NCBI GenBank assembly: GCA_021775575.1
Contig: JAJFHO010000147.1
Location: 1 to 57,518 of the forward strand
Length of the DNA stretch: 57,518 bases
Direction of reading: 5' to 3'
DNA from: Hyphomicrobiales bacterium
Lineage (GTDB): Bacteria > Pseudomonadota > Alphaproteobacteria > Rhizobiales > Methyloligellaceae
Positions 25,657 to 42,541 of the stretch are shown piece by piece. Numbering within the stretch: position 1 is the stretch's first letter; each line of letters begins with the position of its first letter. The notes under the pieces were generated by a model that saw only the letters and a program-made list of their open reading frames with translations, did no database searches and had not been told where the DNA came from. A program made the translations under genes and the position numbers.

Positions 25657-26359
25657 CTACGCGCTTGTCGACAACAGGCCCTGGAAGCAGACGCTGATTG
25701 GCGAGCTTGCCGGGAACAACGAGCTGTTTGTCCTGTTCGGCAAGAACCGTATGCAGGACTATCTCAAAGGCTATCTGCGCCGCCGTGGCGAAATCGATGT
25801 GTCTGAGCGGGTGCGCAATACCGGGGCGGCAAGCGCGACCCGCCGCACTGTCGGCGCGCTGCGCGAGCTCGGCGTTCCCTTCGCGACCGTTTCAAGCGTC
25901 AACAACAAGGCCTGCCGCGACAAACTGCGTGAGTTCGCGCCGGACTATGTCGTCACGGCGCTCGATCAGAAACTCTCTGCGAAAACGCTGGAAGCCGCAC
26001 CGTTATTCCTCAATGCGCATTATGGCGTGCTGCCGCACATAAAGGGCTGGAACGCGACCGAGTGGTCGCTATTGCTCCGCCGTGAACTCACCGTCAGCCT
26101 GCACCGTGTCGCGCCGGGGCTGGACACGGGGGAGATTTTTCTGACACGGCCGGTGGCTGTCTGTGCGGAAGATTCGCTCGAAGGGCTGCGAGGCAAATGT
26201 CAAAATGTGGCGCTGGATATGTACCGGGACTTTTTCGCCGCGCCCGAGCATTATACGGCGCATCCCCAGGGCAACGAAGGCGGCGCGACATATTACGCCA
26301 TGAACCGCCAGATGAAGACGCTGGTGAGCGGGCTCGTCAGGGCGGGGCGCATATCATGA
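25634..26359 (+). CDS. Formyltransferase-fold protein in the polysaccharide operon
   Basis: A 241-residue protein from ATG 25634, overlapping the previous gene by 23 bases and the next by four. The methionyl-tRNA formyltransferase N-terminal fold is indicated by the catalytic Asn and His in LNAHYGVLPHIKGWN and the Asp in GLDTGEIFLTRPV. The order and spacing match N-formyl or acyl transfer from 10-formyl-tetrahydrofolate. It lacks the C-terminal OB domain of tRNA enzymes, so a sugar N-formyltransferase acting on an amino-sugar nucleotide is likely. This is inference from fold and context. Its acceptor sugar is unknown. Confidence 0.72.
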   Translation: MRIAFLFNYALVDNRPWKQTLIGELAGNNELFVLFGKNRMQDYLKGYLRRRGEIDVSERVRNTGAASATRRTVGALRELGVPFATVSSVNNKACRDKLREFAPDYVVTALDQKLSAKTLEAAPLFLNAHYGVLPHIKGWNATEWSLLLRRELTVSLHRVAPGLDTGEIFLTRPVAVCAEDSLEGLRGKCQNVALDMYRDFFAAPEHYTAHPQGNEGGATYYAMNRQMKTLVSGLVRAGRIS

Positions 26360-28365
26360 CGGATGCTGCGCCAATCCGGCATCCGGGTCTCGATTCCGCT
26401 TCCGACGATTTGGCCGCGCCGGGGACGCGCCGGGGGGGCAAATTCCGTTGGTACGCGCAACGCTTGCGCGGAATGAGTGCGGCTGAAATCTCCTACAGGC
26501 TGCATGAACGCCTCAAGCGGGATGTGTCGGCGCGCCGGGCGCACCAATGGTCCGATTTCTCCCTCGGCGAGGGTCTTGTCCCCAAGCTGCCGGAACCGGC
26601 AGCGAACCGGGGCGCGGTTGACGCGATACGTCCGGCAATGGAATCTGCCGCCAGATCGGTGACGTCCGGCGAAGTGCGGCTGATGGGACAGGCATGGCCG
26701 CTCCGGCGCAGCGCGGCCGACTGGCATCTGGATCCGGTGACCGGGCGGCACTGGCCGCGGGATGTGTTTTGTTTCGACGTGCCGTTTCGCCATGACCGGC
26801 ATTATGGCGACCCGAAATATATGTGGGAGCTCAACCGGCTTCAGCATCTCCAGCCCGTTGCCGCCTTGGCGCATATGTCGGGCGATGGGGTGTGCCGCGA
26901 TTTCTGTCTTGCCGAGATCGAAAGCTGGATGGAGGGAAACAGGCCGTTCAACGGACTCGCCTGGGCGACCGGTGTCGAAGTGGCGCTGCGGACGGTTTCG
27001 CTGCTGACGGTCTTTACGCTGCTCGATCTCGACACGGCCAGCGGCGAAACGCGCGCCCGACTGCGCACGTGCCTCGCGGCGCATGGCTATTGGCTCGCCC
27101 GGTTTCCGTCGCGGTTTTCCTCCGCCAACAATCACCTGATCGCCGAGGCGGCGGCACTCTTCCTGCTGGGGACATTATGGAACGACCTGCCTGCCGCGCC
27201 CGGCTACGCGCGATATGGGCGCGAGACGCTTATCGAGCAGGTGTCCCGGCAATTTCATGAAGACGGTGTCGGCGCGGAGCAATCGCCGACTTACGCCGCC
27301 TTTACGCTCGAATGGTATCTGCTCGCGCTGTACGTGGCCGACCGGACTGGCAGACCGTTTCCCGCCACCGTCCGTGATCGTCTCGAAAGAGCAGCGGAGC
27401 ATTTACGCTGGATAACCGATGCGGGCGGCAATCAGCCGCGTATCGGCGACGACGACGAGGGCCGCGTGCTGTCCTCGGGCGTCCCGGAACCGGGCTATGT
27501 ATCCTCCGTGCTTGGGTGCCTTTCCGCTTATCTGGAGCGGAGCGAGTTGGCCCCGCCTGCCGTGACGCCGGGTTTGCGGAACCTGTTTCTGGGATCTTCA
27601 GAGCCGGGCGAGAACGGCCCCTCTGGCCGTCATAATTTCGACGCCGGCGGGTATAGCGTCGTTCGAAGCGATCTGGCCGGCCGCAAGGTCATGCTGGTCA
27701 TGGATCACGGGCCGCTGGGCCACCTCTCCATCGCCGCGCATGGCCATGCCGATGCTCTGGCGCTTTGGCTGCATATCGACGACCAGCCGGTATTGGTGGA
27801 TGCGGGAACCTTTCTGTATCACGCGGGCGGGCGGTGGCGCGACGCATTCAGGGGCACAGCTGCGCACAATACGCTAACCCTCGATTTCGCGAATTCCAGC
27901 ACTATCGCCGGACCGTTCAACTGGACGCGCAAGGCGCGCGCCTGGCGGCAGCAAATAAAGCATCCGGGTGGCGCTTACGCCGCTGCTGGCGTCCATGACG
28001 GGTTCGAGCCCGGCTTTGGCGTGCTTCATGAGCGCGCAATCATAGAAAACGATGCCGGTTTCACGATCCGGGATAGGCTCTCGGGCGATCTGAAAAAACC
28101 GGCCGAAGCCCAGATATCCTATCTTCTGCATCCCGGGCTGGATGCGAGCGTCCACGGCACGAATGTTATCGTTTCCCGAAACGGGCGGCGGATACTGTCG
28201 ATCAACGGCGGCTGTCTGGACGTGAGGATTCACAAGGGAGAGACCCTGCCGCCGCGCGGCTGGTATTCACCGGCCTTTGGCGAGAAAGTGCCGGCGGCGC
28301 AGATCGTGTTTCGCGGAGCAGCCGCCACATCGCGCGACTTCGTAACGGAATTGTCTATTGCCTGA
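26356..28365 (+). CDS. Heparinase II/III-like protein
   Basis: A 669-residue protein from ATG 26356, overlapping the previous stop by four bases. The first half is helical, with FSSANNHLIAEAAALFLLGT (about residues 255-274) and SPTYAAFTLEWYLLALY. The second half has the beta domain, with DHGPLGHLSIAAHGHADALA, VDAGTFLYHAGGRWRDAFRG and AAHNTLTLD. This matches alginate-lyase/heparinase II/III family proteins encoded in exopolysaccharide loci. I see no clear signal peptide, although such proteins act in the periplasm. It may trim misdirected polymer or act non-catalytically. It is the last gene of the plus-strand run. Confidence 0.85.
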   Translation: MTDAAPIRHPGLDSASDDLAAPGTRRGGKFRWYAQRLRGMSAAEISYRLHERLKRDVSARRAHQWSDFSLGEGLVPKLPEPAANRGAVDAIRPAMESAARSVTSGEVRLMGQAWPLRRSAADWHLDPVTGRHWPRDVFCFDVPFRHDRHYGDPKYMWELNRLQHLQPVAALAHMSGDGVCRDFCLAEIESWMEGNRPFNGLAWATGVEVALRTVSLLTVFTLLDLDTASGETRARLRTCLAAHGYWLARFPSRFSSANNHLIAEAAALFLLGTLWNDLPAAPGYARYGRETLIEQVSRQFHEDGVGAEQSPTYAAFTLEWYLLALYVADRTGRPFPATVRDRLERAAEHLRWITDAGGNQPRIGDDDEGRVLSSGVPEPGYVSSVLGCLSAYLERSELAPPAVTPGLRNLFLGSSEPGENGPSGRHNFDAGGYSVVRSDLAGRKVMLVMDHGPLGHLSIAAHGHADALALWLHIDDQPVLVDAGTFLYHAGGRWRDAFRGTAAHNTLTLDFANSSTIAGPFNWTRKARAWRQQIKHPGGAYAAAGVHDGFEPGFGVLHERAIIENDAGFTIRDRLSGDLKKPAEAQISYLLHPGLDASVHGTNVIVSRNGRRILSINGGCLDVRIHKGETLPPRGWYSPAFGEKVPAAQIVFRGAAATSRDFVTELSIA

Positions 28366-30166: not shown

Positions 30167-31519
30167 TTATCGAGCATGACGATGTTCTGCTTCGCTCTTC
30201 AGATGCCATGTCAGCAGCAAGACCAGTGCTACCGTCAAGGCGTAGACGATCAAAAAACGTGGGGTTTCGAGGCCCACATGCAGCATGGCCTGGGTAATGC
30301 CTGCTACCAGCAGGACATAAGCTGTCTGCAGATGTGGCAGATTGTGCGAAGCGATTTGGCTGATTTTGCGCATCAAGCCCGTCAACAAGATCAGATTGAA
30401 GGCCAGGAAGCTCAATCCGCCGGCGAGACCGGTACGGAAGAACATATTCACGAACGAATTGTGCTGCGCGCGCAGATACACCAGATCGTAAATTTCTGTC
30501 TTTCCGCTCCATGGCTCCGAACCACGCTTGAAGATGGTAAGCGCGTTTTCCAGATCCTGCGTCGTGATGGGAAAGTAAGGCGTCCCGAAGCCGATGCCAA
30601 GATACCCTGTTTCATGGAGCGTCTGAAAATTCGAGCGCCAGTTGGTAAATCGCCAAACGGCGTTCTTATCCGCCGAGAAGAGCTCGGGTGACACGGTACC
30701 TACAACGACAATGCCGATGACACAGGCCAGGACCAGCAGGAAAACCTGTGCAAACAGGATTGGCCGATTGCGCAGCAACAAGGCGATCAGCAAATAAAAC
30801 GCAAATAACAGGCCGGTCGACGCCTGAAACAGCGAACCGTAGGTCAGCAGTTTCGTTGCTGCTAGATATACGGTGATCAGGACGAAGGGGAAAAACCGCG
30901 AGTACCGTCTGGGATGGGTAATCCGCGCCATAAAAATAAATAGGAATATGAAATACAGCGTCAGCTTGTTGGCGAATTTGCTATAGCCATTGATCTCTCG
31001 AAACAGCGGATCACCGAAATAATAGGCAGAAATCAGGTCGCCAAGCATAATGGCCAGAGACAATGGCACAAAGTAACGGGCACTGAATTCATAGAGCCAT
31101 GGGTAAAGCCGTCGCCAGAAGACAAATCCCGCCATCAACGTCACGGGCAGAAGCACCAGGAAATAGGCTTGCCGGATGATAAAACGGTCCGACCGCGGCA
31201 GGCCGCCAATGTCGGGATAACCCAGAAAGGACAGGACAAGGGCGAAGGCCCCGGCGCCCGTGAATATATATAAAGCTGGATAGGGACCGTCGCCGCGCAA
31301 GGCCAGTCCGTTCCTCAAGGCCACCAGTGCTGAGGCGGCAGCCAGAGCTACGAAGCCCGGCAGCATTCCCGCGAACGTCCGGAAAACTAGATCATGAGTA
31401 AAGGTGCCGACAATAAGCCAGACGATAAGCACCACCGACAGGAATGTCTCAAGGTGGACGCTGCCCTTTCGCCGGCCCGGCACGCCATAGCTGGGCTCCT
31501 GTGTTGCGGCGCTGCTCAT
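30167..31519 (-). CDS. O-antigen polymerase/ligase family protein (Wzy/WaaL)
   Basis: A 450-residue inner-membrane protein with about eleven hydrophobic segments. The family loop includes YLRAQHNSFVNMFFRTGLAGG (the HN-x-G pattern near residue 354). It polymerises or transfers lipid-linked repeat units in the periplasm. It starts one base after the stop of the flippase gene, so the two are co-transcribed. Its GC content is low relative to the flanks, which is common for Wzy. A 199-base AT-rich gap (29968-30166) separates it from the microprotein gene. I see no hairpin with a T-run there. Confidence 0.83.
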   Translation of the reverse strand: MSSAATQEPSYGVPGRRKGSVHLETFLSVVLIVWLIVGTFTHDLVFRTFAGMLPGFVALAAASALVALRNGLALRGDGPYPALYIFTGAGAFALVLSFLGYPDIGGLPRSDRFIIRQAYFLVLLPVTLMAGFVFWRRLYPWLYEFSARYFVPLSLAIMLGDLISAYYFGDPLFREINGYSKFANKLTLYFIFLFIFMARITHPRRYSRFFPFVLITVYLAATKLLTYGSLFQASTGLLFAFYLLIALLLRNRPILFAQVFLLVLACVIGIVVVGTVSPELFSADKNAVWRFTNWRSNFQTLHETGYLGIGFGTPYFPITTQDLENALTIFKRGSEPWSGKTEIYDLVYLRAQHNSFVNMFFRTGLAGGLSFLAFNLILLTGLMRKISQIASHNLPHLQTAYVLLVAGITQAMLHVGLETPRFLIVYALTVALVLLLTWHLKSEAEHRHAR

Positions 31520-31520
31520 C

Positions 31521-32771
31521 TCAGGCCACCCCCAGCTTCATGTTTTCGCGAATGCCGCTGCGCAGCGTCAGCATCCCGACAAGAACAGGCAAGCGCAGCA
31601 GATGCGCGGCTGTCAGTATGCCGGCCAGGGCAATGATGGAGATCGATCCGCCGCCCGCAACAAGCGCCGCGGCGAGCAGAAATGCGCCGCCGCCGAGCAC
31701 CAGCCAGTTGGACAGAGCGAGCGTCATATGCAGGCCGGTGGCGTTGCACAGCGCCTTGACGATGTAGCGGACGCCGCGCGCCGCGACATAGAGGCCGAAC
31801 AGCCACGGCAGCATGGCCAGGCCGGAAAGCGATACATCATAGATGAGCGGAACCAGCAGATGCCCGCAAAGCGCGAAGGCGAGGCCGACGACGGCGCTGC
31901 CGGCGATCATGAGCGCGATGTCGCGGGCGGCGATGTCGCCGGCCCGCGCACGGGTGAACAGGTGGTTCGTCACCGGAACCGAGATCAGCAGATAGAGCGC
32001 CTCGGCGCGCGTCGCCAGATCGAAAAACAGGAAGTACAGACCGACATTGTAGTCGCCGCCGGCATCGAACAGGCGAATGGTGAGCTTGTCGAGCAAAAGC
32101 ACCAGTACCGTTGCCAGATTGGAGGCTATTGCGATGGCCAGTATACGGGGCCTGGCGTCGTCGAGATCGGCGCCGTCTTCGGCCGTTTCCGGCAGGGTGC
32201 CCCGCGCGCTACGGTACAGCAGCGCATAGTGGGTCAGCGACGCCGTCAGGACCGCGAAGGCAAAAGCGTGGTCGAGCGCGATCCCGGCATAGCGCAACAC
32301 CAGGAAGCCCGCCACGAGAAGGATCTGATAGGCCGTCCGGCAGGCGCGGATCTTCCAGTTGTCGTCGTTGGTTATAAGAACGGCAATGGAGGACTGCGAC
32401 CGGTAGTCGAGAAAGATCGCGCTGGCCACCGGAATGACAAGAAGCAGATCGAAACGCCCCGTAACGATCGCGAAGGCGATTGCTGCAATGCCGACGAGCC
32501 CGCAGTTGAAAAGGAGATAACGGCGGTTGAACGCATCGAATTTCGAGCGCGTTTGCGTCAGCGAATGGGTGATCAGGAAGCCTTCGTAGGCGCCGAGCGA
32601 AATCAGCGCGGTAACGGTGTTCAGAAGGAAGGAGAAGGCGCCATATTGTTCAATCCCGAACTGGCGGGTGTAGAGTATGGTGAAGCCGATGAAGACGAGG
32701 GCCGCAAGCGCGAAAAAGCCGGCATTGGAGGCCGAATTCCGCAAAAAACTTGCGCGCTGCGACTGTGTCAT
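31521..32771 (-). CDS. Wzx-type oligosaccharide flippase
   Basis: A 416-residue, almost wholly hydrophobic protein with about 12-14 predicted helices, typical of the MATE/MVF-like polysaccharide flippases. It begins with RNSASNAGFFALAALVFIGF, and YTRQFGIEQYGAFSFLLNTV follows. The role would be moving the undecaprenyl-diphosphate repeat unit across the inner membrane. It precedes the Wzy gene by one base. The 119-base gap to the aminotransferase stop is short and unremarkable. Confidence 0.86.
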   Translation of the reverse strand: MTQSQRASFLRNSASNAGFFALAALVFIGFTILYTRQFGIEQYGAFSFLLNTVTALISLGAYEGFLITHSLTQTRSKFDAFNRRYLLFNCGLVGIAAIAFAIVTGRFDLLLVIPVASAIFLDYRSQSSIAVLITNDDNWKIRACRTAYQILLVAGFLVLRYAGIALDHAFAFAVLTASLTHYALLYRSARGTLPETAEDGADLDDARPRILAIAIASNLATVLVLLLDKLTIRLFDAGGDYNVGLYFLFFDLATRAEALYLLISVPVTNHLFTRARAGDIAARDIALMIAGSAVVGLAFALCGHLLVPLIYDVSLSGLAMLPWLFGLYVAARGVRYIVKALCNATGLHMTLALSNWLVLGGGAFLLAAALVAGGGSISIIALAGILTAAHLLRLPVLVGMLTLRSGIRENMKLGVA

Positions 32772-32890: not shown

Positions 32891-34339
32891 CTAGCCTTTT
32901 GCGTGGCGCTTGATGAAGTCCCGGACAATGCGCAGGATTCCGCGCGCGAGCAGGGCGTCGAGCGCGTCAACGAAGGTATCGATATCCGTCTTGCGCACGA
33001 TCAGCGGCGGCTCCAGCCGGATGACATTGCGGTTATATTCGGTGAAGGCGACCAGCACGTTGTAGTCCGCGAGCAGCAAACTCCCCACGAAACCGCACAA
33101 GCTTCCCTTCAGCTTGTCGTCGAGCACGGATACAAGCTGTTTCACGCCAAACGGCATGGTGCTGGAGAAGTCCTGAAATTCCAGGCCGACCATCAGTCCG
33201 CGCCCGCGGACATCCTTGATGATCTTGGGATATTTCTGCTTCAGCGCGTTCAGTCGCTTGATGAGATAGTCGCCCTGCCTGGCTGCGTTCTCGATCAGCC
33301 TCTCGTCATAGAGGATGTTCAGCATCTCGATGGCGGTGCAGCAGGCTTCGCCGATGCCGCCAAAGGTGGCGGGCCCGTGAATGAGCGCGGTTTTCGGCTG
33401 GCCGTAGGCTTTCATATAGACGTCGCGTCTGGCGATCATCGCGCCCATGGCGCATTTTCCGCCGCCGAGCGATTTTGCAAGTGCAGTCACGTCGGGCACA
33501 ACGCCTTCATGCTCGAAGGCATAGAATTTGCCGGTACGCCCCAGCCCGCACTGAACCTCGTCGGCAATCCAAAGCACCTCATGCTCGTCGCACAACGCCC
33601 GCAGCGCTCGCCAGTAACCGGCGGGCGCCTCGACGATGCCGCCGCCGCCCTGGATGGTTTCCAGAACGACGATGCCGATTTCCGGATCGGCTTCGATCGC
33701 GCAGCGGATGGCGTCGATATCGCCGAACGGCACTCGAACTATATTGTCCAGAAGCGCGAAATCGGAGCGATAGAGAGGACCGTCCGTGATCGACAGCGCG
33801 CCCTTGGTTTTTCCGTGGAACGAATTCTCCGCGTAGACGATTTTGGAGCGCTTGGGGCCCTGCGCCTGTTCGGCGACCTTGATCGCCGCTTCCATCGCCT
33901 CCGATCCGCTCGAGCCGAGAAACACCATGTCCAGATCGCCAGGCGAAACGGCCGCGAGATTGCTGGCCAGCGCCGCGGCATATTGCGACAGGAACGCCAT
34001 CGCGATCTCGTGCCGGCGTTCATTGGCGAATTTCTTTCGCACCGCCAGGATGCGGGGGTGATTGTGGCCCGGGGCGAGCGATCCGAAACCGCCGAAGAAA
34101 TCGAGGATCCGGCGACCGTCCCGGTCGATATAGTGCATGCCCTCCGCGCGGTCGATGATGACCTTGTCGAAGCCGAGAAGTTTCATGAAGTGGAGCTGGC
34201 CGGGATTGAGGTGCCGGGTGAACAGATCCGCGACCGTGGCGGCGTCGAGGGTCTTGGCCTGCTCGACCGATATCAGCTCCGGTTTCGCCGGCGCCGTAGC
34301 GCCCTTGGCGTCATCGGCAGGGGTGTCAACGAGTGTCAT
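32891..34339 (-). CDS. Class III PLP-dependent aminotransferase
   Basis: A 482-residue cytoplasmic enzyme with AGAGGA upstream of its ATG. PLP-site features are GSSGSEAMEAAIK (phosphate cup), the aspartate in WIADEVQCGLGRTG and the lysine in TALAKSLGGGK (near residue 287). This is the fold of putrescine, ornithine and 2,4-diaminobutyrate aminotransferases. Its place between Wzx and a sugar epimerase suggests that it makes an amino sugar or attaches an amino-acid-like group to the polymer. Sugar aminotransferases are usually class V/DegT, so this assignment is unusual. It is 15 bases downstream of the epimerase gene in the same direction. Confidence 0.87.
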   Translation of the reverse strand: MTLVDTPADDAKGATAPAKPELISVEQAKTLDAATVADLFTRHLNPGQLHFMKLLGFDKVIIDRAEGMHYIDRDGRRILDFFGGFGSLAPGHNHPRILAVRKKFANERRHEIAMAFLSQYAAALASNLAAVSPGDLDMVFLGSSGSEAMEAAIKVAEQAQGPKRSKIVYAENSFHGKTKGALSITDGPLYRSDFALLDNIVRVPFGDIDAIRCAIEADPEIGIVVLETIQGGGGIVEAPAGYWRALRALCDEHEVLWIADEVQCGLGRTGKFYAFEHEGVVPDVTALAKSLGGGKCAMGAMIARRDVYMKAYGQPKTALIHGPATFGGIGEACCTAIEMLNILYDERLIENAARQGDYLIKRLNALKQKYPKIIKDVRGRGLMVGLEFQDFSSTMPFGVKQLVSVLDDKLKGSLCGFVGSLLLADYNVLVAFTEYNRNVIRLEPPLIVRKTDIDTFVDALDALLARGILRIVRDFIKRHAKG

Positions 34340-34354: not shown

Positions 34355-35383
34355 CTACGATGCCGCGGTGCTGCGTTCGGCTGACGGGCGTGCCGGCGCA
34401 GGCTGGCCTTTTTCCGCCAGCCCGGCGCGGTATTCGCGGTAGGCGGCCAGCAGCATGTCGTCGTCGCGGTGTTTTGGCTGCCAGCCGATTTCACGCTCGG
34501 CGCGCGTGCAGTCCAGCACGCAATATTCATCGGCAATGAGATATTGCTCCGGGTCCATCAGTGGCATGTTGACGAAGTCGAGGGCGTTGAGCGTGGCCTT
34601 GACTGCCCAGGCCGGCGTCGGCAGCAGCGGCGAGCGGCTTCCCGCCTCGCGGACCAGCCGCCGCAGCAGGTCGCGCACGGGCGGTGGATCATCGGAACCG
34701 ATATTGTATTCCGCGTTGGGAAAGCCGGCCTTCCAGGCGCAAATAGCCGCGCTGGCGCAGTCGTATACAGAGACGAACTGGTAGGGGTTCTTGCCGGCGC
34801 CGATCATCGGAACGGGAAGGTTCGCATCGATCAGCTTGAACAATCTCACAAGAATGCCAAGCCGTCCGGGACCGATAATCAGCCGGGGCCGGAACACCGA
34901 GATATGCATGCCTTTCGCCCGGTATTCCCGGCACATCTCCTCGGTTACCAGCTTGCTCTCGCCATAGGGGCCGAGCGGGCGGGTCGGGTGATCCTCGGTC
35001 TGCGGGATGCACTCGGAGTGGCCGTAGACCATGTCGGTCGTAAAATGCACCAGTCGCGTGCATCCTTTCCGGTGCATGAATTTCAGCAGGTGCGCCACGC
35101 CGTCGCTGTTAACCGGCCAGAAGAAATCCCGCCGCCGGGCCCGCGGCAGGATGGGGCTGAGCATGCGCGCCGCCATGTTGTGGACAACGTCGTCACGCTT
35201 GAGATCAAGTGCGCCAAAGCTGGCCGGGTCGGTGATGTCCATCTCGACAAACGGCACGTCCGCGTAAACGGGATCGGCGCTTTTGTGGATGTCCGCGATG
35301 ACGGCCTTCTGGCCCAGCGCGTTCAAATCCGCCGCTAAATGGCGTCCGACAAATCCGTCACCGCCGATAATGATGTGTTTCAT
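34355..35383 (-). CDS. NAD-dependent epimerase/dehydratase family protein
   Basis: A 342-residue extended SDR. The nucleotide site IIIGGDGFVGRH lies at residues 4-15. The catalytic pair is YGESK (Tyr about 140, Lys about 144), with the Thr/Ser in HFTTDMVYG. It probably acts on a nucleotide sugar or a lipid-linked sugar. It precedes the class III aminotransferase by 15 bases. A role as the missing DprE2-type reductase in the adjacent arabinose pathway is possible but not supported by sequence. The C-terminus is Ala/Pro-rich and disordered. Confidence 0.85.
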   Translation of the reverse strand: MKHIIIGGDGFVGRHLAADLNALGQKAVIADIHKSADPVYADVPFVEMDITDPASFGALDLKRDDVVHNMAARMLSPILPRARRRDFFWPVNSDGVAHLLKFMHRKGCTRLVHFTTDMVYGHSECIPQTEDHPTRPLGPYGESKLVTEEMCREYRAKGMHISVFRPRLIIGPGRLGILVRLFKLIDANLPVPMIGAGKNPYQFVSVYDCASAAICAWKAGFPNAEYNIGSDDPPPVRDLLRRLVREAGSRSPLLPTPAWAVKATLNALDFVNMPLMDPEQYLIADEYCVLDCTRAEREIGWQPKHRDDDMLLAAYREYRAGLAEKGQPAPARPSAERSTAAS

Positions 35384-35413: not shown

Positions 35414-35785
35414 TTATGCGCTGCGCGCGATCAGAAATGTCCCGGCGCAGATGAGCCCGATACCCGCGATCCGAACCGCATTCAGATCCTCTTTGAAGAT
35501 GAAGTAGGCGTAGAAGGCAGCCACCACATAAGCGAGGCTCAAAAACGGATAGGCAAAGCTGAGATCCACCCGGGAGAGCACGACCAGATGCGAGGCCATC
35601 GAAATCACGAAGACGCAGAGCCCCGCGAATACGAATGGGTTGAGCACCGTTCTGATCGCAGCGCCGAACAATTCGCTCGCTTCAAAGGAGAAGGTGCCGA
35701 CCGACAACATGCCCTTCTTAAGCATGATCTGGGCCGCCGCATTGGTCAGGACGGTGAACAGAATAAGAGGCACATATTTCGTCAT
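35414..35785 (-). CDS. EamA/SMR-type four-TM transporter
   Basis: A 123-residue protein with four hydrophobic segments and the start MTKYVPLILFTVLTNAAAQ from ATG 35785. The longer frame to 36040 would run into the next gene's promoter. The motif AQIMLKKGM and SRVDLSFAYPFLSLAYV recall ArnE/ArnF, which carry undecaprenyl-phosphate-aminoarabinose across the membrane. It lies in a locus with a polyprenyl-phosphate sugar pathway, so I infer a sugar-lipid flippase. It faces the initiating transferase gene across a region with a TTAAGGTTA motif. Confidence 0.78.
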   Translation of the reverse strand: MTKYVPLILFTVLTNAAAQIMLKKGMLSVGTFSFEASELFGAAIRTVLNPFVFAGLCVFVISMASHLVVLSRVDLSFAYPFLSLAYVVAAFYAYFIFKEDLNAVRIAGIGLICAGTFLIARSA

Positions 35786-36039: not shown

Positions 36040-37515
36040 ATGTCGAAAATCGATATTTCGTGCGAGGCGGGCAGGGATGCCGCTCTTTTGGGGGCGGGCG
36101 CGGGACCGCGGACGCCGCGGCGCAAGCGGTCGGTATCGCTCGCGCTCATCATCGACGCCGTCGCGCTTCTGGAGGCGGCCCTCATCGTTCTGGCGGCCTG
36201 GGCTGCAAAAATCGGTTATCTGGATTTCTATCTCGGGGCGGTCGAGCAGACAGCTCCCTATATCGGCGTCGCCGTCCTCCTGGCCGTTATTACATCTCTC
36301 GCCTTTCGACGGCTCGGACTGTATAGCGCCGCCCGCATGCGGGAACCTTTCCTGCAGAACGGGCGCCTGTCGCTGGGATTGAGCGGTTCCTTTCTGGTGC
36401 TGGTCTCGGCGCTCTATGTCTTGAAGGAAGTAGAGCAATTCTCCCGCGGCTGGATGCTGCTTTGGTTCGTCGGCAGCGGCATCGCCATTCTGGCGTGCCG
36501 TTTGTTGCTGTGTGTCTTTCTCAGGTCATTTATTGCGCGGGACGCTTTTCGCCAGCAAATAGCCGTTTATGGAGCGGGAGAGCTGGGCAAATCCGTAGTC
36601 TCCTATTTGCGCGATCTCGCCTCCGATGTGGAAGTGATCGGCGTGTTCGACGATCGCCGGTCAGCGGATCGCGGCACGGTGCTGCCCGTGCATGGGGGGC
36701 TGAGCGAACTGGTCGACTTCGGCAAGCGCGAGCTGTGCGACAAGATCATCGTGGCGGTTCCGGTCTCCGAGCAGAGGCTTGTCCGGGTGATGGATCAGTT
36801 GAGCATCCTGCCCGTCGACGTGCAGCTGTGCCCGGAGACGATGCATCTGCCTTGCTCGGTCTTCGGTTTTTCAAGATTGGGCCGGCTGCAGCTTCTCGAC
36901 GTTCAGAGGCGGCCGATGTCGGCTCGCGATCATTACGTAAAGACCGCGATGGACTTCGTTCTCGCCGCAATCGGTCTCGTACTGGTGCTGCCGTTCTTTC
37001 CGCTCATCGCCCTTGCGATCAAGCTCGACAGTTCGGGGCCGGTTTTTTTCCGGCAGCGGCGCCACGGCTACAACCACCAGATCATACGTGTTCTCAAATT
37101 CCGCACCATGACCGTGCTGGAGGATGGCCCGGTCGTACAGCAGGCCCGCAAGGACGATGTGCGCGTGACCCGCGTCGGGCGCTTTCTGCGCGCCACCAAT
37201 ATCGATGAGCTGCCGCAGCTTCTGAACGTTCTGAAAGGCGACATGTCGCTGGTCGGGCCGCGGCCGCACGCGCTCGCCCATGACGCGTTCTATGCCGAAC
37301 TCGTGGACCGCTATGGCAGCCGCCTGCGCGTCAAGCCGGGAATTACCGGCTGGGCGCAGGTCAACGGCTTCTCCGGAGAGACGTCCGACCCGGAGCTGAT
37401 GCGCAAACGCGTCGAGCATGATGTCCACTACATCGACAACTGGTCGGTGTGGCTCGATGCGGAAATCATCCTGTGGACCGTATTCATGGCCCTGACCGGG
37501 CGTCTGGTTCATTGA
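36040..37515 (+). CDS. Undecaprenyl-phosphate sugar phosphotransferase (WcaJ/WbaP type)
   Basis: A 491-residue inner-membrane initiating enzyme. N-terminal TM segments (about residues 28-170) are followed by a Rossmann-like CoA-binding domain, [14 protein letters not shown]. The C-terminal Bac_transf catalytic domain starts near 300 with [15 protein letters not shown] and includes [37 protein letters not shown]. It transfers a sugar-1-phosphate, probably glucose or galactose, onto undecaprenyl phosphate as the first step of the repeat unit. AAGAGAG precedes the ATG. It is first in the plus-strand run to 43270. Confidence 0.93.
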
Positions 37516-37528
37516 CGGAGCAATTTGG

Positions 37529-38977
37529 GTGATGTTGAGAAGCGTACATACCGATGTCAGGAACCGGCCCGTCTGTGTCGATCTGGACGGCACGCTGTTT
37601 CGCGGCGATTTACTGGTCGAGTCGGTCATCGCCTTGCTGAAGATCAATCCGCTATTCCTCTTTCTGCTGCCCGTCTGGCTGATCGGCGGCAAGGCGCATC
37701 TCAAGCAGCAGATCGCGAACCGCGTCGATATCGATCCCGTGGCATTGCCCTACAACAAGCCGTTCCTGGCCTGGCTCAGGAAACAGAAAAAGGCCGGCCG
37801 TCCGATCGTCCTGGCGACGGCGTCGAACGTGAAATTCGCTAGAGCGATTGCCGGCCATCTGAAGCTCTTCGACCTGGTTCTCGCCAGCGATGCCGAGAAT
37901 AATCTTTCCGGTGACGCCAAGCTGGCGCGGTTGCGCGAGGAATTTGGCGATGGCAATTTCGACTATGCGGCCAATGCCAGGGTTGATCTGAAAGTCTGGC
38001 GCCACGCCAATGCGGCCATCGTGGTCAATCCCGAATCCGGCGTGCGCCGCGCGGTGGAGAGCCGCATGCCCGTCGCCAAAGTATTTGACGACCGGGACGA
38101 TCGCCTGCGCCATTGTCTGAAAGCGATGCGTCTGCATCAGTGGCTGAAGAATCTTCTCGTTTTCGCGCCGCTGGTTCTGGCGCACCGGCTGTTCGAGCAG
38201 CAGTTGGTGGTTCAGGCCTGTATCGCTTTCTTCGCCTTCAGCCTGTGTGCGTCCAGCGTCTATCTGCTGAACGACATCCTCGATCTCGCCGCCGATCGCC
38301 GCCACCCGAAGAAGCGGTTGCGTCCGTTCGCCAGCGGCGCGTTGCCCGTGCTTCACGGTGTCCTGCTCGCGCCGGTTCTGCTCGCTGGCGCGCTGGCGCT
38401 ATCGCTGTTTCTGCCGCCGCTGTTCGGCGTCATGCTCGCGCTGTACTATCTGACGACGCTTGTCTATTCGCTGTTCATAAAGCGGACCGTGCTGTTCGAT
38501 GTGCTCGTCCTTGCCGGCCTGTTCACCTTCCGCCTCCTGGCCGGTGGCGCGGCGGTGGGCGTACCGCTCTCCTTCTGGCTGCTCGCCTTTTCCATGTTCC
38601 TGTTCCTCTCGCTGGCGCTGGTGAAGCGCTATGTCGAGTTGAGAATGCTCCCGAACGAGCCGGGCCGGCAGCTTGCCGGGCGCGGTTACCAGGCCGCCGA
38701 TCTGGAGACGCTCGCCCATTTCGGCATCGTCAGCGGTTACATGGCGGTGCTTGTTCTGGCGCTCTATATCGACAGCCAGGCGGTCACCCTGCTGTACGGG
38801 CATCCGGAAATGATTTGGTTCCTGTGTCCGCTGATTCTCTATCTGGTCAGCCGCATCTGGCTTCTCGCGCGGCGCGGCGAAATGCATGACGACCCTGTCG
38901 TATTCGCGGTCAAGGACAGCCGCAGCCTCGCTGTTGTCGCGCTCGGCGGCGCGTTGATGTGGGCGGCGACCCTGTGA
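37529..38977 (+). CDS. HAD-UbiA fusion: likely decaprenyl/polyprenyl-phosphate phosphoribosyltransferase
   Basis: A 482-residue protein. GTG 37529 or ATG 37532 could be the start. N-terminal HAD domain: DLDGT (near 18), LATAS and VDLKVW. The C-terminal UbiA membrane domain has NDILDLAADRRHPKKRLRPF (about 248-267) and FDVLVLAGLFTFRLLAGG, the DPPR-synthase pattern of mycobacterial Rv3806c. That enzyme joins PRPP to polyprenyl phosphate. A fused HAD phosphatase could then remove the 5-phosphate. It starts 13 bases after the initiating transferase, and its stop overlaps the next gene. HAD motif III is not obvious (DYAANARVD). Confidence 0.82.
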   Translation: MMLRSVHTDVRNRPVCVDLDGTLFRGDLLVESVIALLKINPLFLFLLPVWLIGGKAHLKQQIANRVDIDPVALPYNKPFLAWLRKQKKAGRPIVLATASNVKFARAIAGHLKLFDLVLASDAENNLSGDAKLARLREEFGDGNFDYAANARVDLKVWRHANAAIVVNPESGVRRAVESRMPVAKVFDDRDDRLRHCLKAMRLHQWLKNLLVFAPLVLAHRLFEQQLVVQACIAFFAFSLCASSVYLLNDILDLAADRRHPKKRLRPFASGALPVLHGVLLAPVLLAGALALSLFLPPLFGVMLALYYLTTLVYSLFIKRTVLFDVLVLAGLFTFRLLAGGAAVGVPLSFWLLAFSMFLFLSLALVKRYVELRMLPNEPGRQLAGRGYQAADLETLAHFGIVSGYMAVLVLALYIDSQAVTLLYGHPEMIWFLCPLILYLVSRIWLLARRGEMHDDPVVFAVKDSRSLAVVALGGALMWAATL

Positions 38978-40329
38978 GCGGCTCCATGGATGCGACCTAT
39001 CAGTCATGGGGACGTTTTCCAGCCGCGCGCCAGTCCGGCGTCGTGCCGAACCATCGTGATGCGCCGCTCCCCCTGGATCGCGCATCCGGCAATACCTATC
39101 TGCCCTTCGGCAACGGGCGCAGTTATGGCGACAGTTGCCTGAATGACGGTGGTGTGCTGATCGACTGCCGCGGCCTTGACCGGGTCATCGCGTTCGACGC
39201 CACCGCGGGCGTGCTGCGCTGCGAGGCCGGCGTTCTCCTCGCCGATATCCTGCCGCTGATTCTGCCGGAGGGGTGGTTCCTGCCGGTGACTCCGGGAACC
39301 CAGTTCGTCACCGTCGGCGGCGCCATCGCCAACGATGTGCATGGTAAAAACCATCATGTCGCGGGCACGCTCGGCCGCCATGTGCGCCGCTTCGAACTGC
39401 TGCGCTCCGACGGTTCGCGGCGGATTTGCTCACCGCGCAAAAACACCGAGTGGTTCCGCGCCACCGTCGGGGGGCTCGGGCTGACCGGTGTGATCACCTG
39501 GGCCGAAATCCAGCTCAAGCCGGTCGCCAATGCCGCGATCGAACAGGAGGTGATCCGCTTCTCGGGGCTCAGGGAGTTTTTCGAGCTCTCCCGGGAATCG
39601 GAAGTCTCGCACGAATATACGGTGTCATGGGTCGATTCCCTGGCTGGCGGCGCGGCGCTCGGGCGCGGTCTGTTCATCCGGGGAAACCACGCCGGGGAGG
39701 GCGCCGGACCGGTACCGGGCGCGCCGGGCAGGCCGGTCGAGTTTCCGCTCGATCCGCCATTTCCGCTGCTGAACCGGTTGACCCTGCGGGCTTTCAACAC
39801 GCTCTATTACCGCAAGCAACTGTCGAAGCAGAAACGCGCGCTGGTGCATTGCGAGCCGTTTTTCTACCCGCTTGACCGGGTCCGCAAATGGTACCGGCTC
39901 TATGGGCCGAAAGGTCTGTTGCAGCATCAATCCGTGATACCGCATGAAGCGGGCGAGGCGGCCGTGCGCGAGTTGTTGGAGCGCTCTCTTAACGCCGGCG
40001 CGGGATCGTTCCTGACCGTCCTCAAGGAGTTCGGGCCGCTCCCCTCCGCGGGCATGATGTCGTTCCCGCGGCCCGGCGTCACCCTGACGCTCGACTTCGC
40101 CAACCGGGGCCGAAAGACGCTGGCGCTGCTCGATGAGCTCGACAGTGTCGTGCGCGAGGCCGGCGGCGCCGTCAACCCATACAAGGACGCCCGCATGAGC
40201 GCGGAGAGCTTTCAGGCGTTTTTTCCGCAATGGCGTGCCTTCACCGCCTATGCGGACCCGTGCTTCTCGTCGAGTTTCTGGCGCCGTGTAACCGATGGCG
40301 CGCGGGTCAAGCAGGAGGTGCCGGCATGA
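38974..40329 (+). CDS. DprE1-like FAD-dependent oxidoreductase
   Basis: A 451-residue flavoprotein from GTG 38974, whose GTGA overlaps the previous stop; ATG 38986 is an alternative. FAD-binding PFGNGRSYGDSCLNDGG and the very conserved TVGGAIANDVHGKNHH (near residue 120) match DprE1. YKDARMSAESF near 404 carries the Lys equivalent to Lys418 of the mycobacterial enzyme. DprE1 oxidises decaprenylphospho-ribose at C2' so that an SDR (DprE2) can reduce it to arabinose. No DprE2 gene is in the window. It is linked by overlap to the UbiA and GT-C genes. Confidence 0.86.
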   Translation: MSGSMDATYQSWGRFPAARQSGVVPNHRDAPLPLDRASGNTYLPFGNGRSYGDSCLNDGGVLIDCRGLDRVIAFDATAGVLRCEAGVLLADILPLILPEGWFLPVTPGTQFVTVGGAIANDVHGKNHHVAGTLGRHVRRFELLRSDGSRRICSPRKNTEWFRATVGGLGLTGVITWAEIQLKPVANAAIEQEVIRFSGLREFFELSRESEVSHEYTVSWVDSLAGGAALGRGLFIRGNHAGEGAGPVPGAPGRPVEFPLDPPFPLLNRLTLRAFNTLYYRKQLSKQKRALVHCEPFFYPLDRVRKWYRLYGPKGLLQHQSVIPHEAGEAAVRELLERSLNAGAGSFLTVLKEFGPLPSAGMMSFPRPGVTLTLDFANRGRKTLALLDELDSVVREAGGAVNPYKDARMSAESFQAFFPQWRAFTAYADPCFSSSFWRRVTDGARVKQEVPA

Positions 40330-41675
40330 CCGCCCGCGCCGCTTTCGATCCGTTCATTCGGGCATTCTTGAGCATCGTTGCCGCGGCCCATGTCGCCTTG
40401 GTGCTTTTCGTTCCCGATATGGCGGAGAAATTCCAGCTCGGCGACCGGGCCTGGGATCGTTCGGCCAAGATCGATGCCCTGCTGCGAGCCCCTGATTTCG
40501 AAGCCGGCATCGCGGCCCTGTTCTACAATGGCGCGCCGGGCGACTATATCTTCTTCCTGCCAGCCTATGCCGGTTTCGGGCCGGCCGGCGTAATCGCGCA
40601 GAATATCGTCCTGCTGCTTATCGGCCTTTGGTTCCTGTACCGGATCGGACTTGCCTGGCTCTCGCCGGCAGCCGCGCGGATCGCGGTTATTGCCTATGCG
40701 CTTTTGCCAGCGACAATCTTCCATCCGCACGTATTCGCCAGCGAGGCGATCTGCAATCCCTTGCTGATTATCGCGACCTGGTATGCCGGCCGTCTGCTTA
40801 CGAGCGACCGTCCGGCGCTTCGTGATGCTGCGCTGTTCGGCCTTGTTTGCGCGGTGCTCGTGTTTACCCGCCATATCTATCTGCTGTTCCCGGCGATGGT
40901 GGCCGGTCTGATGCTGGTGCGGCAGGGTTTTGCGCGCCGCTCCATTGCGGCGCTGTGCATGGTGCTGGCGCTGTCCTTTGCGATGACTGGAGGCTGGCGC
41001 GCGGCAAACTGGGCGACCGAGGGCCGCTATGAGGTGGCGCCGAGTTTCCACGGGCTGGAGTCGAACCTGTTTCTGCGCGCCGAGCGCATGGCGGCGACGG
41101 GTGGTTTTGCCCTTGTATCGGAAATTTCGCGGCGCCGCGCCATCAGCCCTGCCGATTTTGCTGAGCTCGCCATCGGGCATCCCGCGCCGCTGCTGCGGAC
41201 CGTCGTTTCCGATGCGGTCAATCTGACCGGCAACACGGGCGTGTCGATGGTCTATGGGCGTTATTTAGGCCTGTTCGACCTCGGCGAAAAGGGCGATGCG
41301 GACGTTTTCAAATGGCGCGACATCCGCGACCGGGACGGCACCATCGCCATGCTCGCCTATATGGGCCGAACCGCGCCGCTGGCGCTTGTTTTCAATGCGG
41401 GCTTTGCGCTCATGTGGGTGGCGCTGCTTGTTGTCTCCCTGCTCGGCGCGTTCCGGTTTCTGTTCGATGGCACAAGCGGAATTGCGCTGCGCCTGCTGTT
41501 CGCGGGCGTGCCGCTCTATGTTTTCACGTTTACCTTCGTATCCGGGTCGGTGCGATGGGACCACCGCTCGCCGATGGAATTTGTGATCTGCCTTTTCTTC
41601 GCTGCGGGAATACCTGTTTTGCTCTCGCTCTTCGACAAGGCGGACAACAGACTTCCTATTTCAGAAGCCGGGTGA
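40326..41675 (+). CDS. GT-C type membrane glycosyltransferase (polyprenyl-phosphate-sugar dependent)
   Basis: A 449-residue inner-membrane protein from ATG 40326, whose ATGA overlaps the DprE1-like stop. About ten hydrophobic segments. The first periplasmic loop carries FQLGDRAWDR, where GT-C enzymes hold catalytic acids, though I could not align it strictly. Helices such as FFLPAYAGFGPAG and IAQNIVLLLIGLWFLYRIG are typical of the GT39/ArnT type, which transfers a sugar from a polyprenyl phosphate to an acceptor in the periplasm. With its operon partners it likely uses polyprenyl-phosphate arabinose. Confidence 0.78.
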   Translation: MTARAAFDPFIRAFLSIVAAAHVALVLFVPDMAEKFQLGDRAWDRSAKIDALLRAPDFEAGIAALFYNGAPGDYIFFLPAYAGFGPAGVIAQNIVLLLIGLWFLYRIGLAWLSPAAARIAVIAYALLPATIFHPHVFASEAICNPLLIIATWYAGRLLTSDRPALRDAALFGLVCAVLVFTRHIYLLFPAMVAGLMLVRQGFARRSIAALCMVLALSFAMTGGWRAANWATEGRYEVAPSFHGLESNLFLRAERMAATGGFALVSEISRRRAISPADFAELAIGHPAPLLRTVVSDAVNLTGNTGVSMVYGRYLGLFDLGEKGDADVFKWRDIRDRDGTIAMLAYMGRTAPLALVFNAGFALMWVALLVVSLLGAFRFLFDGTSGIALRLLFAGVPLYVFTFTFVSGSVRWDHRSPMEFVICLFFAAGIPVLLSLFDKADNRLPISEAG

Positions 41676-41743: not shown

Positions 41744-42541
41744 ATGAAGATTGCAGTAGCCGCAACGCTGGTCATGTTGCTCGCTGGCGCCGCACCGTGC
41801 GGCGCCGGCGTGGATTTGCCGCGCGACGTGGCCAGCGGTTGGGACTTCGACGTCAGTCTGAGACGTGGTTTTAGGCCTTGGGGCTACAAGCTTGTCAGCA
41901 TCGCCGACGGCCATCCGGTGCGCGCGGGAAAGCAATCGCTTCGCTTCGAGGTCCGCCCCGGAGACTGCAGTGAAAACTCCATGGGACATGACGATTGCGC
42001 TACCGACAGGGAACGGCACGAGCTCGTTCAGATCGGACGGACACAAGAGGAGGGCGATGAATGGTGGTACGCCTGGTCGCTCTATCTCCCTCTCGACTAT
42101 CCGAATGTGTATCCAACCAAGGTCGCCCTGGCCCAGTTTCATCAGCATCCGGAAGTCATCTGGATGTTTCGCAACAAGGATGGCGGCTATTTCGTCAACC
42201 GGCAGGAGGAACTCGGGCGCGGCTATGGCTTCGACCGGATCCTCGAGGACGCCGATATGCGCGGGCTGTGGAACGATATGCTGGTCCACGCCCGTTGGAC
42301 CCGCAAGGGCGACGGCTACTTCAAGGTCTGGGTCAGCAACGTGCTGGTCTATGACTATAAGGGGCCGACCATGGGCGCGGACACGACCGTCTATTTCAAG
42401 ATCGGCATCTACCGCACCTTTGTCAGCCGTTACAAGAAGGCGAAAGGCGTGCAGGCAGTCCCCGCGCAGGTCGTCTATTTCGATGAAGTCCGGCGCGGCA
42501 AGACGCGGGCGGACGTTGCGATCGGTGCACGGTCCCGTTGA
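41744..42541 (+). CDS. Secreted polysaccharide lyase (PF14099 type)
   Basis: A 265-residue protein with a Sec signal peptide (about residues 1-22, ending CGAG). The lyase signature region is ERHELVQIG then EGDEWWYAWSLYLPLDYP and ALAQFHQHPEVIW, with a beta-jelly-roll fold expected. AGGG lies upstream of the ATG. It should act on acidic polysaccharide in the periplasm or outside by beta-elimination. The product's ManNAcA residue would be a suitable site. It follows the GT-C gene in the same direction, 68 bases on, and is most likely a polymer-trimming enzyme. Confidence 0.82.
   Translation: MKIAVAATLVMLLAGAAPCGAGVDLPRDVASGWDFDVSLRRGFRPWGYKLVSIADGHPVRAGKQSLRFEVRPGDCSENSMGHDDCATDRERHELVQIGRTQEEGDEWWYAWSLYLPLDYPNVYPTKVALAQFHQHPEVIWMFRNKDGGYFVNRQEELGRGYGFDRILEDADMRGLWNDMLVHARWTRKGDGYFKVWVSNVLVYDYKGPTMGADTTVYFKIGIYRTFVSRYKKAKGVQAVPAQVVYFDEVRRGKTRADVAIGARSR

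Follow-up and report, generated by a model that had tools for sequence, protein, structure and literature searches.

A predicted polyprenyl-phospho-pentofuranose pathway variant with a class-III aminotransferase in the place of DprE2

Genes and proteins of the locus

The window, i.e., the whole stretch of DNA that was analyzed, comprises 57,518 nucleotides of a Hyphomicrobiales contig. The following features were assigned on its two strands:

30167..31519, minus strand: Wzy-like polymerase/ligase (Wzy_C 25 bits, below the cut-off of 31.7; syntenic homologue in locus L128)
31521..32771, minus strand: Wzx-like protein, name guessed from position (open reading frame; syntenic homologue in L128)
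32891..34339, minus strand: AT3, a class-III PLP aminotransferase that presumably acts on the 2-ketone left by DprE1, instead of its reduction by DprE2 (Aminotran_3, conserved residues, linkage)
34355..35383, minus strand: extended SDR (SDRext), GalE-like, presumed lipid-linked pentofuranose epimerase (Epimerase match, motifs, conservation)
35414..35785, minus strand: ArnE/F-like small transporter (EamA), presumed lipid-linked sugar flippase (ArnF and EamA, below cut-offs; linkage)
36040..37515, plus strand: WcaJ-type initiating sugar-phosphate transferase of EPS (TIGR03023 450 bits, cut-off 411)
37529..38977, plus strand: HAD-UbiA fusion, polyprenyl-phosphate phosphoribosyltransferase and 5'-phosphatase of the PPPRS-PRP type (PRK08238, UbiA, 8j8j, motifs)
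38986..40329 (alternative GTG start 38959), plus strand: DprE1-type FAD oxidase, predicted to form a 2-ketone on a lipid-linked pentofuranose (NF053785, solved DprE1 chains)
40326..41675, plus strand: possible GT-C transferase (sub-threshold PMT_2; homologue in L128)

Open reading frames and profile matches define a plus-strand unit of HAD-UbiA, the DprE1-type oxidase and the possible GT-C transferase, with the WcaJ-type gene upstream of HAD-UbiA in the same unit and the transporter gene nearby. On the minus strand the SDRext and AT3 genes adjoin the transporter gene, and both recur together with UbiA-DprE1. The Wzx-like gene, for the product of which no Pfam match was found, lies downstream of AT3 in the minus-strand unit. 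A sequence-only reading had recognized a module for polyprenyl-phosphate-arabinose in an EPS locus of Gram-negative type; the present analysis supports a polyprenyl-phosphate-pentofuranose module at this place. The end-to-end overlap that it had described was verified for the DprE1 and GT-C genes, which share an ATGA, but an overlap of DprE1 with HAD-UbiA requires the GTG start of DprE1, and otherwise eight bases lie between them. The ArnE/F-like transporter that it had placed at 35414 is real, and its start is likely at 35785 rather than at the TTG at 36040. A formyltransferase gene at 25634-26359 (PF00551) raised the idea of N-formylation, which is mentioned here in passing, as no homologue was present in the syntenic stretches of L169 and L128.

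The HAD-UbiA protein reached 651 bits with the NCBIfam model PRK08238, well above the cut-off of 351, and 132-165 bits with models of decaprenyl-phosphate phosphoribosyltransferases, which is under the cut-offs of those models. The UbiA match had 73 bits, the HAD match had 24 bits (under the cut-off of 27), and the solved phosphoribosyltransferase 8j8j matched with 106 bits. The motifs NDILDLAADRRHPKKRLRP and DLDGT were found, in agreement with the earlier assignment. The matches to PRK08238 and 8j8j point to the PPPRS-PRP synthase of the three-component pentofuranose system.

The DprE1-like protein scored 338 bits against NF053785, under the cut-off of 500, and solved DprE1 chains aligned to its residues 43-443 with 234 bits. 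Although the score is below the NF053785 cut-off, the window probably encodes the DprE1 oxidase of the DprE1/DprE2 pathway, as had been read from the sequence before. The residues at the positions aligned to Y60, H132, K134, Y314, Q334, Q336, K367 and K418 are identical, and Thr is present at the positions aligned to N385 and C387. We take Cys387 of DprE1 to be the covalent benzothiazinone site; because of the Thr at this position, the DprE1 inhibitor test that had been suggested could mislead here if covalent benzothiazinones were used.

For the membrane protein encoded at 40326-41675, PMT_2 scored 20.7 bits, below the cut-off of 26.1, and thus the earlier GT-C label is plausible, with a sub-threshold profile match. 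Among the fetched loci a homologue (56% identical) was present in L128 only, a PDB sequence search yielded only matches of E 0.3 or worse, and the AlphaFold model (pLDDT 43, 2 sequences) was too poor for a fold search. The best model for the transporter was ArnF with 48.5 bits (cut-off 99), followed by ArnE with 33 bits (cut-off 92), and thus it passes neither cut-off of the Arn (Ara4N) pathway; the EamA match of 27.8 bits was also under the cut-off (28.2). Homology below the cut-offs together with linkage suggests that it is the ArnE-like flippase of the three-component system, with flipping being predicted. As ArnF and ArnE serve Ara4N, an amino pentose, these matches count for an amino pentose. 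On the other side, ArnE-like transporters have been proposed to serve neutral pentoses as well (PMC11127046, as far as this source was available), which counts against it.

The aminotransferase AT3 had been left unconnected to the module in the sequence-only reading. It matched Aminotran_3 with 298 bits, its nearest PDB entries were 4ppm and putrescine aminotransferase, and K289 in LAKSLGGG as well as D260-E261 were invariant in 10/10 sequences. Among the best 25 of 69 NCBIfam models, AT3 passed no curated equivalog cut-off; the top scores were obtained with PigE (373 bits, cut-off 850) and putrescine aminotransferase (316 bits, cut-off 612). The AlphaFold model (pLDDT 54, 10 sequences) was too poor for a fold search. 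Class-III aminotransferases act mostly on open-chain aldehydes or ketones, and we know of no relative of AT3 that acts on a ring ketone. SDRext matched Epimerase with 121 bits and 3ehe, which is named GalE-1, with 71 bits. It contains the motifs GGDGFVG, TTDMVYG and YGESK, and thus has the GxxGxxG and YxxxK patterns of a GalE-like extended SDR.

Distribution of DprE2, AT3 and SDRext

The genome of the window was searched for DprE2, and none was found; the best SDR had 50-53 bits, compared to 180-246 bits in seven chosen DprE2 controls. The sequence-only reading had proposed a D-arabinose step, to be given up if neither a DprE2 homologue in the genome nor arabinose in the product turned up. The first half of this is what was found, and D-arabinose is unsupported as the product because the genome of the window contains no DprE2.

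When 80 loci were picked by DprE1 similarity alone, 73 contained a DprE2-like SDR, five contained AT3, none contained both, and two, of which one lies at the end of a contig, contained neither. The DprE2-like SDR gene followed directly after DprE1 in 72 cases and was located elsewhere on the contig in L114. UbiA was directly upstream of DprE1 in 70 loci of this sample, and thus the pairing is not due to chance. The DprE2 label was checked: the best solved match of the profile was the DprE2 chain 21gq_C with 130 bits, and the next match had 74 bits. Seven members with this label reached 254-340 bits with PRK07102 (six of them over the cut-off of 267) and 157-197 bits with the DprE2 model, under its cut-off of 250.

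After inclusion of AT3-directed sampling, 120 DprE1 loci were available, 86 with DprE2, 31 with AT3, none with both and three with neither (L072, L160 and, at a contig end, L087). Forty AT3 loci were read, most of them from one order. DprE1, UbiA, SDRext and the transporter were each present in 39 of them, and DprE2 in none. Locus L197 has AT3, SDRext and the transporter, and no UbiA or DprE1 in the about 62 kb examined of its 207 kb contig. In genus g67 an orthologous DprE1 was found in 47/61 genomes, all 47 of which have AT3; AT3 is present in 48/61. All five genes were seen in 19/19 loci read from this genus, and AT3 occurs also in other genera of the order. The search in g67 gave six further DprE1 matches, each with DprE2 beside it, and for five of them AT3 was present in the same genome; G853, G865, G881 and G899 are genomes with both. 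With at most four candidates scored per genome, AT3 was rare, i.e., it was found in 2/385 genomes of the class and 7/398 of the phylum, the genome of the window included.

These results bear on the view that an arabinose pathway operates after all, with DprE1 and an unlinked or non-homologous reductase yielding D-arabinofuranose while AT3 serves another sugar. The homology of UbiA and DprE1 fits this view, and an unlinked DprE2-like SDR is possible, as exemplified by genome G071, in which the cluster is without AT3 (best 164 bits genome-wide) and a DprE2-like SDR of 201 bits is encoded elsewhere. However, 13/13 tested AT3 genomes had SDRs at background level only (51-79 bits) and no DprE2, AT3 and DprE2 do not share a locus among the 120, and the linkage of AT3 to DprE1 holds even in L139 and L092, which lack obvious polysaccharide genes in their ORF lists as judged by eye. 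L092 is from the soil strain Bosea lathyri DSM 26656. We regard this view as quite unlikely.

A second alternative is that SDRext is a 2-keto reductase that replaces DprE2, leading to arabinose or ribose, and that AT3 aminates another carbon or molecule. Extended SDRs can reduce keto sugars, and SDRext accompanies AT3 in nearly all AT3 loci. Against this, SDRext was found beside DprE1 and DprE2 in L188 and L193 (in L192 likewise as a fragment), it occurs with HAD-UbiA and without DprE1 in L206, and the genome of L040 keeps AT3 and DprE1 without SDRext, an absence that is soft in a MAG of 2.8 Mb. SDRext as a DprE2 substitute was rejected on L188, L193, L206 and L040, and the alternative is unlikely. 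Because SDRext occurs with DprE1 and DprE2 and also without DprE1, it is AT3, not SDRext, that takes the place of DprE2.

The adjoining genes for AT3 and SDRext would also fit oxidation of C3, or another carbon, by SDRext and amination there by AT3, yielding a sugar with the amino group at C3 or at that other carbon, while the product of DprE1 would be handled otherwise; GalE-like SDRs act via a transient keto sugar. This third alternative, a 3-amino sugar, appears improbable, as the genome of L040 has AT3 without SDRext and as the DprE1 ketone would be left partnerless, yet so few DprE1 loci lack both DprE2 and AT3.

The Thr at the Cys387 position together with NPYK was considered as a DprE1 signature specific for AT3 and was rejected, because L160 retains it whereas L040 and L127 do not have it. 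It tracks the main AT3 clade and not AT3, and is thus no proof of amination. At the position aligned to Tyr314, Arg is found in 23 of the 31 AT3-linked DprE1 proteins, and Tyr in the window. In a quick DprE1 tree four changes of the AT3 label were needed, at least three of which were forced by well-supported branches; gains as well as losses could account for these changes, and the branch of L127 is long, so that no number of independent origins is claimed.

Proposed pathway

Gene presence, linkage and the exclusion of AT3 and DprE2 are the observations made here, and the reactions and the product are predicted from them. The two strands probably encode a variant of a polyprenyl-phospho-pentofuranose pathway with a class-III aminotransferase in the place of DprE2. 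HAD-UbiA, with an architecture like that of Citrobacter ORF15, would use PRPP to load polyprenyl phosphate with ribose-5-phosphate, the 5'-phosphate of which would then be stripped by the HAD domain. SDRext would invert C3, if it acts like Citrobacter ORF13. By homology, DprE1 would oxidize C2 to the ketone, which, as the genome context suggests, AT3 would transaminate to a 2-amino-2-deoxypentofuranose. The product would be polyprenyl-phospho-2-amino-2-deoxypentofuranose. The ArnE/F-like protein would flip this donor, and the membrane transferase would put the sugar on the exopolysaccharide. The gene set thus suggests an amino sugar that is made on a lipid carrier for surface coats. Points that weigh against this pathway are the usual open-chain substrates of class-III aminotransferases, the rarity of AT3 in the wide samples, the gene content of L197, the Arg at the Tyr314 position in most AT3-linked DprE1 proteins, and the genomes that have both AT3 and DprE2.

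More generally, we lean slightly towards a modular, combinatorial code. In it, a single scaffold made from PRPP would be altered by SDRext, where this is present, and by DprE1, after which DprE2 would reduce or AT3 would aminate the sugar. Swaps of single enzymes would thus give pentofuranose donors of the arabino, xylo, 2-amino-2-deoxy and possibly lyxo type. If true, the AT3 branch is a new route to amino sugars, in which a ring ketone is aminated while bound to polyprenyl phosphate. The pathway predicts an undescribed activated amino sugar, aminated on the lipid carrier and not as a nucleotide sugar; in the open-access literature searched, no description of the gene set or of a 2-amino-2-deoxypentofuranose donor was found. 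Charge and recognition of a surface polymer would change if it bore such a basic pentose. The exchange of DprE2 for AT3 is a one-gene swap that is directly testable, and DprE1-like genes should be used with caution as arabinose markers.

Comparison with known systems

The Arn pathway (undecaprenyl-phospho-L-Ara4N) resembles the predicted pathway in its lipid-linked amino pentose and its ArnE/F-type transport. Arn aminates UDP-sugars with a DegT-type aminotransferase, whereas the window would aminate a lipid-linked furanose with a class-III enzyme, and its transporter is under the ArnE/F cut-offs. The mycobacterial DPA pathway (Rv3806c, Rv3807c, DprE1/DprE2, Rv3789) shares the UbiA phosphoribosyltransferase and the DprE1-type oxidase; in contrast to it, the window has a fused HAD 5'-phosphatase, no DprE2, the Thr at the Cys387 position, and an aminotransferase. 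For noeCHO of Azorhizobium caulinodans, which concerns arabinosylation of the Nod factor, a rhizobial use of the mycobacterial arabinose chemistry was proposed from similarity (PMC2443382). In this respect it resembles the window; an aminotransferase is not named in the available part of the account.

The O1/O2 loci of Citrobacter youngae encode the PPPRS-PRP protein ORF15, the activity of which was proven, the ArnE-like ORF14, the GT136 enzyme ORF12 and the epimerase ORF13 (PMC11127046). As far as this source was available, the HAD-UbiA fusion, the small ArnE-like transporter, a membrane transferase, which is putative in the window, and a GalE-like SDR are common to this system and the window, and so are auxiliary enzymes that diversify the pentose. 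The diversifying enzymes named in the available part are epimerases only (ORF13, DprE1/E2), and unlike the Citrobacter system the window contains DprE1 and a class-III aminotransferase and lacks DprE2. Taken together, the gene set extends the three-component pentofuranose systems known so far by a new variant.

Genes of the module in the window

The sequence-only reading had described a D-arabinose module of three overlapping genes on the plus strand, and all three were confirmed as real open reading frames. The GT-C label of the third is plausible: it encodes a membrane protein, and its family is suggested by a sub-threshold PMT_2 match. The transporter nearby had also been named, while its neighbours, a GalE-like extended SDR (SDRext) and a class-III aminotransferase (AT3), had gone unmentioned.

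36040-37515, plus strand: WcaJ, 5' of the next three genes
37529-38977, plus strand: HAD-UbiA (ORF, family models)
38986-40329 (GTG alternative start 38959), plus strand: DprE1-type oxidase (ORF, family models)
40326-41675, plus strand: membrane protein, weak PMT_2 match (ORF, Pfam)
35414-35785, minus strand: ArnE/F-like transporter, divergent from the plus-strand genes
34355-35383, minus strand: SDRext, after the transporter
32891-34339, minus strand: AT3, after SDRext
beyond AT3, minus strand (strand order): Wzx-like and Wzy-like genes

HAD-UbiA retains both the aspartate motif and the HAD motif DLDGT. The DprE1 matches the solved enzyme at Y60, H132, K134, Y314, Q334, Q336, K367 and K418, and has Thr at the positions aligned to N385 and C387. 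Arg occupies the Y314-aligned position in 23 of 31 AT3-linked DprE1s. The solved structures nearest to AT3 were 4ppm (272 bits), which we take to be PigE, and a putrescine aminotransferase (256 bits), and AT3 passed no NCBIfam cut-off among the best 25 of 69 models. K289, aligned to the PLP lysine, and D260-E261 were unchanged in 10 of 10 aligned members.

The exopolysaccharide locus also contains a formyl transferase (PF00551, 25634-26359, plus strand), the target of which may be an amino sugar in the polymer. Two polysaccharide lyase-like proteins (41747-42541 and 26356-28365, both plus strand; PF14099 and Hepar_II_III) are encoded as well, together with a probable UDP-ManNAc epimerase and dehydrogenase (21085-23590), named from ORF reading alone.

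Distribution of AT3 and DprE2 beside DprE1

The best 80 loci of at least 587 confirmed stretches were chosen on DprE1 similarity alone. A DprE2-like SDR was present in 73, and in 72 of the 80 it ended 300-1100 bases past the DprE1 stop; at L114 the contig stops after DprE1 and the SDR lies elsewhere on it. Five of the seven loci without DprE2 had AT3 (L040, L082, L092, L094, L110). Neither gene was seen at L072, nor at L087, which stops at a contig edge. AT3 and DprE2 occurred together in none of the 80. With loci of relatives and AT3-directed loci added, which makes the set no unbiased sample, 120 DprE1 loci comprised 86 with DprE2, 31 with AT3, none with both and three with neither. Twenty HAD-UbiA regions were taken from relatives (25 genomes exceeded the cut-off); DprE1 was found in nine, accompanied by DprE2 in seven, AT3 in one and neither in one.

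Among 40 AT3 loci, DprE1, UbiA, SDRext and the transporter were each present in 39, DprE2 in none and the window's GT-C in two; at L040 the gene after AT3 encodes a clear PMT_2 protein (55.9 bits). L197 counts against linkage: AT3, SDRext and the transporter were present, and neither UbiA nor DprE1 was found in the roughly 62 kb examined. The gene set is not one fixed block, because gene order varies (L127, L135, L199-L201). AT3 is rare in wide samples, with at least two of 385 genomes of the class and at least seven of 398 at phylum scale, the window's genome included, when up to 4 candidates were scored in each genome. A quick DprE1 tree, with L127 as a long branch, required four changes of AT3 label, gains and losses being indistinguishable.

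Two further observations concern single loci. The UbiA ORFs of six AT3 clusters (L082, L092, L094, L127, L135, L198) span about 300-340 aa and leave no room for an N-terminal HAD domain, so that a separate 5'-phosphatase would have to act. L086 goes under the title Comamonas sp. KCTC 72670, yet its DprE1 falls inside Myxococcaceae on the tree; it is either mislabelled, contaminated or recently transferred.

In genus g67 (61 genomes), AT3 was found in 48 and an orthologous DprE1 in 47, each also with AT3; in the 48th, AT3 lies at the beginning of a contig. Thirteen genomes were without AT3: DprE1 had no match in 12 of them, and its match in G869 was more distant. DprE2 adjoins all six further DprE1 matches of the genus (L188-L193), five of which come from genomes also carrying AT3 (G853, G865 twice, G881, G899). 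Thus both can coexist in a genome, yet each of these DprE1 clusters has one or the other.

SDRext was judged unlikely as the DprE2 replacement, since it coexists with DprE2, occurs without DprE1 and is missing where AT3 stays. L188 and L193 unite HAD-UbiA, transporter, SDRext, DprE1 and DprE2 in a single cluster; L192 has an SDRext fragment beside HAD-UbiA, DprE1 and DprE2, and no transporter was seen there. L206 (G1027), a candidate xylofuranose system, has an SDRext relative (46% identity), HAD-UbiA and a small transporter, with DprE1 absent. SDRext was not found in the genome of L040 (best score 53 bits), a 2.8 Mb MAG in which HAD-UbiA, DprE1 and AT3 are present. When 397 genomes of the order were searched starting from SDRext, with up to 5 candidates scored in each, at least 20 had it, and AT3 adjoins it in 18 of these 20, the exceptions being G071 and G1027. 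SDRext is thus an independent option, as expected of an epimerase like ORF13, and AT3 alone alternates with DprE2.

DprE2 in genomes with AT3

A D-arabinose product would call for DprE2, which the sequence-only reading had noted as missing from the window. A DprE2-like query taken from another locus matched nothing beyond ordinary SDRs in the window's genome, the best at 50 bits and 27% identity. With that genome at 98.75% completeness and split into 281 contigs, this absence alone would be soft. A profile of three DprE2-like proteins was run over 21 genomes. Seven controls, picked for DprE2 adjoining DprE1, scored 180-246 bits, and their second-best SDRs up to 95. In 13 of 13 AT3 genomes DprE2 was not found, the profile reaching 51-79 bits, the level of the controls' second-best SDRs, with a clean gap between the two groups. 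Repeated across AT3 genomes, the absence is not soft, and the arabinose assignment was not sustained.

G071 has a cluster of UbiA, DprE1, transporter and SDRext without AT3, and a DprE2-like SDR (201 bits) unlinked to it. AT3 scored 749-1083 bits in three AT3-bearing genomes and at most 203 in nine others (G071 164). Against solved structures, the best profile match was 21gq_C, a chain named DprE2 reductase (130 bits; next 74). On seven members PRK07102 (cut-off 267) gave 254-340 bits, six above it and the G071 protein at 340; the DprE2 model (cut-off 250) gave 157-197 bits, none above.

Proposed chemistry and known pentofuranose systems

By the known chemistry, polyprenyl-phosphate-ribofuranose would be made first and then oxidised by DprE1 to its 2-ketone. 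DprE2 would reduce this ketone to give arabinose; with AT3, transamination to a 2-amino-2-deoxypentofuranose would be the simplest reaction. We infer the amine, its position and its configuration. SDRext, where present, would invert C3. An amino pentose would suit the ArnE/F-like carrier as cargo, but an ArnE-like carrier has been proposed for neutral pentofuranoses too (PMC11127046). In L188 and L193, and in part L192, C2 and C3 might both be inverted, giving lyxofuranose, a sugar in no solved carbohydrate structure according to PMC11127046.

No report of the UbiA/DprE1/AT3/SDRext/transporter set was found in the open-access literature searched. Three-component pentofuranose systems are the subject of PMC11127046, in which the sugar is diversified by ORF13 or by DprE1/E2; its available text names no aminotransferase, the word itself not occurring. 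Deletion of ORF13 in Citrobacter youngae changed xylofuranose side chains to ribofuranose (PMC11127046). SDRext is likened to this epimerase as an optional auxiliary enzyme.
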